From positions 62,001-126,000 of the forward strand of contig JAGWXD010000001.1 of the NCBI GenBank assembly GCA_018970085.1: a DNA stretch of 64,000 bases, given 5' to 3'. The position numbers and the translations under genes were made by a program. The notes beneath the pieces are model-generated. The model had not been told where the DNA came from, did no database searches, and worked only from the letters and a program-made list of their open reading frames with translations. Below are positions 19,593 to 24,326 of this stretch, piece by piece (the first letter of the stretch is position 1; each line of letters starts with the position of its first letter). Source of the DNA: Cyanobacteria bacterium REEB459 (lineage in GTDB: Bacteria; Cyanobacteriota; Cyanobacteriia; Phormidesmidales; Phormidesmidaceae).

Positions 19593-19682
<90 letters not shown>

Positions 19683-19745
19683 TTCAGTTAAATCCTTAAG
19701 CCCCCAAGTCAAGGAGGCGGCCTGGCTTGCAAACAGCTAGGGTAG

Positions 19746-21400
19746 CTAGCCCCCCAGGCTAATCCCCAGAATAGCCCTGACCTGGCTGTAATCGGGCACC
19801 TCGATCGCCACCGCCGGGGCCTTCCAGATAGTCTGCCGGTAGTCTAGGATGGAGCGATCGCTGGAAAACCTACCCATGCGGGCCACGTTCAGGAGAGACA
19901 TGCGCCTCCAGTAACAGGCGGCTTAGTCGGGGGTTACTCAGTACCATAAAGCGGCGGGGGGTAAGGCCATTGGTGACGTTGGTGAACTTCTCGGGGTAGA
20001 GCTCGTAGAAGTCCCGCAGCACGGTTTGCTTCAGCAGTTCACTGTGGAGGGCCGCTACCCCATTGATGGCAAAGCTGCCCACGCAGGCCAGATGGGCCAT
20101 GCGAACGTAGAGATCGCCGCTGTCATCAATAATGGATAGCTGCTGCAGCCGCTTAGGATCATCGGGGAACCGCATCCGCACCTGATCCAGAAAGCGCTGG
20201 TTAATTTCGTAGATAATCTCCAGGTGACCGGGCAGCACGGTTGCAAACATGGCCAGGGGCCAACGTTCCAGGGCCTCCGGCAGCAGGGTATGGGTGGTGT
20301 AGGCAAAGCTGTGGGTGGTGATCTGCCAGGCCCGCTCCCAATCAAAGCCATGGACATCGATCAGCAGGCGCATCAGTTCCGCCACGCCAATGGCGGGGTG
20401 GGTATCGTTGAGCTGGATGGCAAACTGGTCCTGGAACCGTTCCAGGGGGAGGTTTTGCTGTTGCAGCAGGCGAATCATGTCCTGCAGGGAGCAGGAGACA
20501 AAGAAGTACTGCTGCTCCAATCGCAGTTGTTTTCCCTGGTCGGAGTCATCGTTGGGGTAGAGCACCTTGGTGATGTTTTCGCAGGCGCTCTTTTCCTGCA
20601 CGGCGCCAAAGTAGTCCCCCTGGTTGAAGGCGGCAAAGTCAAAGGATTCCGGTGCCTCCGCCTTCCACAGGCGCAGGGTATTGGCGGTATTGGTCTGGAA
20701 GCCCAAAATCGGGGTATCGTAGGGCACCCCCTTGACCAGCTTGTAGGGTACCCAGCGCACCCGGTAGCGCCCCTGATCATCGGTGTAGGCCTGGGTGTGA
20801 CCACCAAACTGAACGTAGAGCGCCGCCTCAGGCCGGGCAATTTCCCAGGGGTTGCCGTAGCGCAGCCACTGATCGGTGATTCCCACCTGCCAGCCCTCCC
20901 GGATCTGCTGATCAAAGATGCCAAACTGGTAACGGATGCCGTAGCCGATCTCCGGTACCTCCAGGGTGGCCAGGGAGTCAATGTAGCAGGCCGCCAGCCG
21001 ACCCAGGCCGCCGTTGCCCAACCCCGGCTCCTCCTCCTGCTCCAGCAGGGCGGCGAAGGGCAGCCCCAGATCCTCCATGGCCTGCCTGACGCTGTCGTAG
21101 ATCTCCAGGTTGGTCAGGTTGTTGCCCCAGGTGGGGCCCCAGCAGGAAATCCGCCGATAGGTAGGCAACGGTGCGGGAGGCCCGCTCCAGGTAGGTTTGG
21201 CTAGTGTTGAGCCAGCGGTTAATCAGGCGATCGCGCACCGTGTAGGCCAGGGCCAGGTAGTAATCATGGCGGGTGGCGATTTTAGGAAACTTGCCCTGGA
21301 TATAAAACAGATTATCGAGAAAGGCCCGTTTTAGGGTTTCCACACTGGTGCCAGTGCGATCGTCCTCAATCTGAATAATATCAGGTACCGTGCTGACCAT
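19746..21400 (-). pseudogene. glgP: Glycogen phosphorylase, inactivated by frameshift and internal deletion
   Basis: Three pieces in three frames together make the two ends of a glycogen/alpha-glucan phosphorylase. Piece 1 (21400 to about 21128) starts MVSTVPDI and reads to YLSADFLLGPHLG. One extra base in the C-run at 21125-21128 then shifts the frame. Piece 2 (to about 19902) continues NNLTNLEIYD through NDTHPAIGVAELMRL and TNVTNGLTPRRFMVLSNPRLSRLL, then runs into a stop at 19870. Piece 3 (19901-19746) is the C-terminus, MSLLNVARMGRFSSDRS. About 550 of the usual 840 residues remain. The missing 270-290 residues include the PLP lysine and much of the active site. It lies 42 bp downstream of the phosphoketolase gene. 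Confidence 0.92.
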
Positions 21401-21442: not shown

Positions 21443-23878
21443 TTAGTAGGGCCAGGTCCAGTTGACAACATCGGGGCGATCGATGCCATGCTCATAGGCG
21501 TAGGCGGTGCAGGCAATTTGCTCATCTTTAAGCCTTTCCTTGGCATGGGCACCGGCAATCTTGAGTTTGGGCACCCGATCAATCACATCGATGGCGATAC
21601 TAAAGCGATCGATCTGATTTTGAATAGCCAGGTCCAAGGGGGTATTAATATTGCCCTTTTCCTTATACCCCCGCACATGGATATTCTGATGGTTGGTACG
21701 ACGGTAGGTCAGCCGATGAATTAACCAGGGATAGCCGTGAAAGTTGAAGATCACCGGTTTATCTGGGGTAAACAGACTATCAAAGTCCAGGTCGCTTAAC
21801 CCGTGGGGATGCTCCGATGCAGGCTGCAACTTGAATAAATCAATCACATTCACAAAGCGAATCCTCAGATCGGGAAAATACTCCCGCAGCATCGAGGTAG
21901 CCGCCAGGGACTCCTGGGTAGGAATGTCTCCCGCCGTGGCCATCACCACATCGGGCTCAACCCCCTGGTCGTTACTGGCCCACTCCCAGATATCGATGCC
22001 CTTGGTGCAGTTTTTAATCGCCGTTTCCATATCGTGGTACTGCAAGTGCATTTGCTTGTCCGACACGATCACGTTGATGTAATTTTTGCTGCGCAGGCAG
22101 TGGTCTGCCACCGATAGCAAGGTATTGACATCTGGTGGCATGTAAATGCGCACCACATCTGGGCTTTTATTCAGCACCACATCAATGAACCCTGGATCCT
22201 GGTGGGTGAAGCCGTTGTGATCCTGTCGCCAAACCGTAGAGGTAATTAGCAGGTTCAGGGAGGCAACCGATTCGCGCCAGTGAATATGATTACAAATAGA
22301 TAGCCACTTGGCGTGCTGGTTAACCATAGAATCAATAACATGGGCAAAGGATTCATAGGTGGAGAAGAACCCATGGCGGCCAGTGAGCAAATAGCCCTCT
22401 AACCAACCCTGCAAGGTGTGTTCACTGAGCATCTCCATGACGCGCCCATCAACAGATAGTTCACTGCCATCCTCATCCTCTGGCAGGTAGTCGGCAATCC
22501 AGAATTTTTTACTAACTTCGTAAACAGCGCCGAGTTTGTTAGAGGTGTTTTCGTCAGGACCAAACACCCGGAAGTTGGTCATGTTGTTTTTCATTACATC
22601 CCGCAGGAATGCACCCAGGGGCTTGGTATTTTCGGCCTCTATCAAACCGGGCCCCTCCAGGGTCAAGCCATACTGACGAAAGTCAGGCATGGTTAGATCT
22701 TGCAGCAGCAATCCGCCGTTGGCATAGGGAGTTGCGCCCAGCCGTCGATCTCCCCTAGGGGCCATGTCCTTAATATCTGGTCGCAGGGTACCGTTGGAGT
22801 CAAATAGCTCTTCTGGCTTATAACTTTTCATCCAGGCTTCTAACCGCTGCACATGGTCGGGGTTACTATGCATAGCCCCCATCGGCACCTGGTGCGATCG
22901 CCAGAAGCCTTCCACTCTATGGCCATCCACCATCGTCGGGCCAGTCCATCCCTTCGGTGTTCGTAGCACAATCATGGGCCAGATCGGCCGGCTAGGCACA
23001 CCGCTAGACCGGGCTTCCTGTTGAATCCGGTGGATCTCAGCCAGGCAGTGATCTAGAGTCGCCGCCATCGCCTGATGCATAGATGGGGGATCGGACCCCT
23101 CAACGAAGTAGGGCTCATACCCGTAGCCTTCAAACAGGGCTCGCAACTCTCGATGGCTGATGCGAGAGAGAATGGTGGGGTTATTAATTTTGTAACCGTT
23201 CAGGTGCAGCACCGGCAGCACCGCACCATCTCGAATCGGATTGATGAACTTATTAGAATGCCAGGATGTCGCCAGGGGACCGGTTTCTGACTCCCCATCC
23301 CCAGGCATGGCGACCACAATCAGATTAGGGTGATCAAAGGCGGCACCGTAGGCGTGGGACAAGCTATAGCCCAGCTCTCCCCCCTCATGGATAGAACCGG
23401 GGGTTTCGGGAGTGCAGTGGCTACCAACGCCACCGGGAAAGGAGAACTGCTTAAAGAACCGTTGCAGGCCGATTTCATTTTCGCTACAGTCGCTATAGAA
23501 ACGGGAATAGCTACCCTCTAGGTAGCAGGGACCCAGAAAGCCAGGGGCACCGTGGCCTGGCCCCACCATCAGCAGCATGTCCTGATTAAAGGCCTTAATC
23601 ACCCGGTTGAGGTGGGTATAGAGAAAACTGATACCAGGGCTGGAACCCCAGTGACCCAGCAGTCGCTGCTTAATGTGCTGGGGCTGCAGGGGTTGTTTCA
23701 GCAAGGGGTTATCCCGCAGATAGATCATGCCCACCGCCAGGTAGTTAGCCGCCCGCCAGAAGGCATGGAGGCGCGTCAGTTCTTCAGCCTCCAGGGGGGT
23801 ACCGGCGATGGTAGAGCGGGCCTCACCATAGGCACTGATAGATAATCCCTGGGTTGACTCTGGAGGTATGACAGCCAT
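21443..23878 (-). CDS. xfp: D-xylulose-5-phosphate/D-fructose-6-phosphate phosphoketolase
   Basis: Phosphoketolase is a thiamine-diphosphate enzyme that splits xylulose-5-P or fructose-6-P with phosphate into acetyl-phosphate plus a C3 or C4 sugar phosphate. The 811 residues match the family. [20 protein letters not shown] (about 120-139) and [20 protein letters not shown] are ThDP-site and family motifs. [12 protein letters not shown] is the diphosphate/Mg motif, and the C-terminal domain ends [15 protein letters not shown]. The ATG at 23878 was chosen over one 13 codons upstream. It is followed by the broken glgP, so sugar-phosphate handling and glycogen use were probably one operon. Confidence 0.95.
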
Positions 23879-24326
23879 GATCACTATCCCTATACAGAAG
23901 ATTTTTGTGGCAGACAAACAAACGGTTTTACGGTCCTATTAACCGTTCTACTAACACATCTTTTGCATTAATTTCTGCTCCCTAGGTATTACTATAAATA
24001 ACTGAAATTAAGAGGAGTTTAATCATTAATAACGCCTCCTGGCCCAATAACAGCAATAGCAACCAGCTCAAACCACAGTTTATTTTGAGAGCTTATTTCA
24101 GCTTAAAATACATGAATAGAAAAAGTCTAAAAAGTTCAAAAAGCTTTGCGAAGCCAGCTCCAATTAGGCTTAAGATGATTATCTGCCAACTATAGATTAA
24201 TTCATGCTAGCCGTTGTTAACGGCGTTAGCCCTGATTTAATCACCGGAGCTTGCCCCTGTCGGCTAAGTGGTTTAAACCGGCCGGGCTAGACTGGGTAAA
24301 ACCCAGTGACAGCCCCCACAGGCGGA
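23879..24326. other. Intergenic region upstream of phosphoketolase
   Basis: About 450 AT-rich bases lie between the start of xfp and the end of the RCK protein gene, both minus strand. It holds a 7-bp inverted repeat (AACGGTT at 23921-23927, AACCGTT at 23941-23947) about 45-70 bp before the xfp start, and the hairpin CTGGGT-AAA-ACCCAG at 24291-24305 just beyond the stop of the RCK gene. That hairpin has no U-run, so it is a weak terminator candidate. No gene is visible. Confidence 0.5.

Follow-up and report, generated by a model that had tools for sequence, protein, structure and literature searches.

A probable glycogen phosphorylase pseudogene beside the only phosphoketolase gene of a cyanobacterial genome

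Within the 64,000-nucleotide stretch of Cyanobacteria bacterium REEB459 DNA analysed here (the window), the minus strand at positions 19746-21400 carries a glycogen phosphorylase (GlgP) gene split over three frames, which we interpret from its sequence as the pseudogene of a second, phosphoketolase-linked glycogen phosphorylase. It lies directly downstream of an intact phosphoketolase (xfp) gene on the same strand (Table 1), and both the position next to xfp and the destruction by two lesions, as given in a preliminary description of this region, agree with alignment to the intact GlgP of a relative from another family (G028), with Pfam and with anchors conserved among homologues. The explanation that we consider likely, on comparison of both genes across the class, is that an xfp-glgP pair was transferred into this lineage, that Xfp was kept and that the redundant GlgP decayed.

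Table 1. Features of the xfp-glgP locus (window coordinates)
Feature	Position	Strand	Description	Basis
xfp	21443..23917	-	Intact phosphoketolase gene, separated by 42 nt from the broken glgP downstream	ORF list; Pfam
glgP, N-terminal piece	21125..21400	-	Residues 1-92, first frame	Alignment to intact G028 GlgP; ORF list
glgP, main piece	19906..21129	-	~408-410 residues, second frame, zero internal stops	Alignment; PF00343 E 4e-177
glgP, deletion junction	19902..19911	-	~10 nt left versus ~888 nt in intact relatives	Alignments
glgP, C-terminal piece	19746..19901	-	Third frame, homology in the first 40 residues	Alignment; PF00343 positions 686-712

The three pieces are collinear with residues 1-92, ~88-496 and 793-832 of the 842-residue GlgP of G028, and matches to the Pfam Phosphorylase profile (PF00343) are confined to positions 2-390 (E 4e-177) and 686-712 (E 4.6e-7), values at which a chance match is not an issue. 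The first break is a one-base frame shift near 21125, between adjacent short G- and C-runs; the frame change previously ascribed to an extra base in the C-run at 21125-21128 stands, while the base responsible is not assignable, since the two runs adjoin. The reading frame of the N-terminal piece continues out of frame to 20978, and the open frames left in the gene are 140 and 432 residues long. The second break is an out-of-frame deletion of ~878 bases, or ~293 codons, at the junction at ~19902-19911, in keeping with the internal deletion proposed near 19900 and close to, if somewhat above, the 270-290 residues first estimated. Two conserved anchors flanking it are separated by 37 nt in the window, and measured on the alignment against 128 intact homologues (the frames with at least 800 residues among 141 distinct intact frames) the missing length is 878 nt in 114, 881 nt in 12 and 875 nt in two, none of which is divisible by three. 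In all 128 the GTGNMK-type motif, which we take to be the PLP-binding lysine motif of GlgP, falls inside the deleted stretch, as had been anticipated, and a six-frame scan finds zero occurrences of it in the window. A phosphorylase without the PLP-motif region cannot work. Of the features of a functional phosphorylase, the locus retains the N-terminal half of the PF00343 profile and lacks both the PLP motif and a single open frame of ~840 residues; it bears the inactivating lesions that characterize pseudogenes, here the frame shift and the 878-nt deletion. The window copy resembles the intact PF00343 proteins of G028 and G159 in its first 500 residues and at its C-terminus, at 79% identity, and is distinguished from them by the absence of ~293 codons, the PLP motif included, and by its two frame breaks. 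Third-position G+C of the main piece (19906-21129) is 0.79, compared with 0.60-0.70 in seven other window genes and 0.62 in Xfp.

Phylogenetic analysis assigns neither gene of the pair to the type prevailing in the genus. In a GlgP tree of the main piece and the 91 of the 128 intact homologues that are at least 64.9% identical (G159, G049, G172 and G258 stand outside the trees), the sister of the broken copy is G028_C6, the xfp-linked GlgP of G028, from another family (support 100/97). An AU test rejects (p 0.0014) constraining the broken copy with the genus's own clade, represented in this genome by an intact GlgP on contig C41. The 25 congeners searched yield no close relative of the broken GlgP: the best match among them has 73% identity, and 20 of them do not reach the E cut-off of 1e-211 applied in that search; the best matches in the class, among 388 genomes with at most four candidates scored per genome, reach 79% in G028 and G159. 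The window Xfp, the sole Xfp of its own genome, is 84% identical to that of G028 versus 60-70% to the full-length matches of congeners; it falls in a clade with G028 and G029 (support 100/99), and its placement with the genus-type Xfp clade is rejected (AU p 1.4e-5 with all 18 rows, 9.5e-46 with 14 rows). By these comparisons the dead GlgP and Xfp both appear atypical for the genus and group with other cyanobacterial families. We infer that the two genes probably arrived jointly by horizontal transfer, with this lineage as the recipient, a reading against which it counts that xfp-glgP linkage is not universal: xfp is present in four of the 13 neighbourhoods of the closest GlgPs in the class-wide set, those of G159, G049, G172 and G258, and several of the 13 contigs are short. 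An old paralogous pair kept here and lost in congeners, by differential loss without any transfer, is in our estimate unlikely: several GlgP clades do coexist within the genus in our tree, so that paralogue turnover would be common, yet such a history requires both genes to be gone from all 25 congeners examined for GlgP and has to accommodate a different Xfp type in 20 of 22 congeners, the other two (G003 and G010) having distant matches only. On the transfer reading, the pair, whose type occurs in other families of cyanobacteria, would most likely have entered the lineage in one event; Xfp would have been retained as the genome's only phosphoketolase, and the incoming GlgP, redundant with the resident C41 enzyme, would have been lost through the one-base frame shift and the ~878-nt out-of-frame deletion, in either order.

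The affinity of both genes to other families could also have reflected a contaminant contig, which we rejected on the genus-type character of two further genes: the best 19 matches of the contig's UPF0182 gene outside its own genome, and the best 17 of its radical-SAM gene, are all from congeners. The TrkA-like and MscS-like genes to the right are not clearly of the genus's type. Around the UPF0182 gene, synteny with congeners extends to one neighbouring gene and none beyond, and the 15 congener stretches compared yielded no usable borders of a transferred segment. Just downstream of glgP, ARAGORN predicts a tRNA-Phe gene (19609-19683); nothing else in the genome matches tRNA-Phe at more than 77% identity. 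A tRNA-targeted island at this position is unsupported, as the window contains no second, att-like copy of the tRNA 3' end. The first 17 bases of this single tRNA-Phe gene are present as a tandem duplicate (19593-19609 and 19610-19626).

The lesions were read in one genome of the species, a draft of 102 contigs with completeness 99.84 and contamination 3.16, and an assembly or consensus error, with the gene intact in the organism, has to be weighed accordingly. Such an error, to which the fragmented draft and the location of the frame shift between short G- and C-runs lend some credence, is unlikely on several counts. It would have to produce two separate lesions within one gene. Furthermore, the missing stretch does not turn up at another place in the assembly, since the middle of the PF00343 profile is covered by no other gene of this genome than the C41 copy and, with a weak match, a distantly related enzyme of 959 residues. 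Identity of the C-terminal piece is 75% with G028 and 52% with the genome's own C41 copy, so both sides of the junction are of the same gene type and the junction is no chimera of two paralogues. Nor is the assembly generally frame-shifted, since no Pfam family is divided over neighbouring frames among 46 further window ORFs, 39 of which match a family and seven none (57 ORFs of at least 130 residues were considered, GlgP pieces were set apart and nine frames overlapping larger ones left out). Finally, the broken copy carries an excess of change at invariant sites, violating four of 92, a rate above that of each of the 128 intact homologues (next worst 4/96, mean 0.26%); at looser invariance cut-offs of 98% and 95%, two and one of the 128 intact proteins, respectively, are equally bad. 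We accordingly regard the lesions as probably real in the organism.

These invariant sites also qualify the earlier impression of a well-conserved remnant. Differences from G028 in the main GlgP piece amount to 14% at first, 9% at second and 49% at third codon positions, close to the 13, 8 and 49% of the intact Xfp, and this constrained pattern together with the lack of an internal stop indicates that most of the divergence accumulated under constraint; the proposal of a recent loss holds in this sense, relative to divergence. The main piece is 76-79.5% identical to four close kin that are 82-89% identical among themselves, and Xfp is 83-88% identical to close kin that share 87-91%. In relative-rate tests the window GlgP evolves faster in 3/6 and 5/12 comparisons (p<0.05) and the intact Xfp in 0/3 and 4/12; as Xfp is also somewhat fast, the acceleration is specific to GlgP only in part. 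We read the loss of glgP as recent relative to the split, though not necessarily very fresh. That the 140- and 432-residue frames instead yield stable proteins that have taken on a new function other than catalysis, for instance in glycogen binding or in a heteromer with intact GlgP, is very improbable: the longer frame is stop-free and has the codon-position pattern of constraint, a pattern explained equally by recent loss, and such proteins would have broken invariant sites and a fold without the C-terminal domain.

Loss of the xfp-linked copy leaves other glycogen-metabolism genes in place. The proposed search of the genome for another glgP recovers the intact C41 gene, with 850 residues from Met in an open frame of 852 and profile coverage of 2-713, whose product is nested among congeners in the tree as the genus's own type. 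A second phosphorylase-family enzyme is encoded on contig C23, two glgX-type and two glgA-type genes score above their curated cut-offs, and glgC, whose retention had already been pointed out, lies in the window at 177-1457. With all of these retained, an altered balance of glycogen storage and use, as suggested in the preliminary description, is not implied, and the possible false conclusion that the strain is unable to break down glycogen is corrected. A comparable case of two GlgP genes in one cyanobacterium is Synechocystis PCC 6803, in which GlgP2 is the main contributor and recovery is little affected when GlgP1 is lost (PMC6514691); by this analogy a tolerated glgP loss here would be unsurprising, with the difference that one of the two genes is here a pseudogene. 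The broken glgP thus appears to be an unremarkable case of a spare gene lost beside a retained phosphoketolase, one example of an xfp-glgP pair, probably acquired together, of which xfp alone was kept, and its significance outside this lineage is modest. More tentatively, the lineage may have swapped its own phosphoketolase for a foreign one accompanied by a dedicated glycogen phosphorylase, whose later loss uncoupled the two enzymes, a scenario to which we give a minor but real chance; phosphoketolase flux would then be independent of co-expressed glycogen breakdown.

Relatives with an intact xfp-glgP pair, for which the preliminary description had proposed looking, do exist. By match coordinates, four of 37 relatives (G016, G024, G028 and G034) have xfp and a glgP on the same strand no more than 5 kb apart, and at 12 of 80 named loci, including the proteobacterial L112 and L115, xfp falls inside the examined stretch, at L099 in the opposite orientation. 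G159 carries an intact xfp directly upstream of glgP, 114 nt apart, with 83% and 79% identity for the two genes, and G049 an intact xfp directly upstream of a glgP of the same type. These loci of other cyanobacteria and some proteobacteria share with the window an xfp directly upstream on the same strand, and differ from it in that their glgP is intact. Neither an xfp-glgP pair nor this glgP pseudogene was found described in the literature searched, which included the accessible parts of PMC11257934, PMC7895386, PMC6514691, PMC10406281, PMC7744508 and PMC4390870.

Further arrangements were observed among these neighbourhoods. In G172 the order is xfp-EF-hand-glgP, with xfp at 5.7 kb, and in G258 (locus L235) it is xfp-EF-hand-pgi-glgP, with xfp at ~8 kb. 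The latter cluster, of xfp, an EF-hand protein, pgi and glgP, is found in G028 as well (L027 7521-15054); it would connect glycogen to acetyl phosphate stepwise, with a calcium-binding-type protein between, and seems to merit its own study. The phosphoketolase of G029 (contig C19, L163 640-3059) is itself spread over three frames, covering residues 19-183, 179-348 and 321-824, and reflects either another case of gene decay or an error in the assembly. In Pleurocapsa sp. MO_192.B19 (L067 492-7292), xfp is flanked by two glgP copies.
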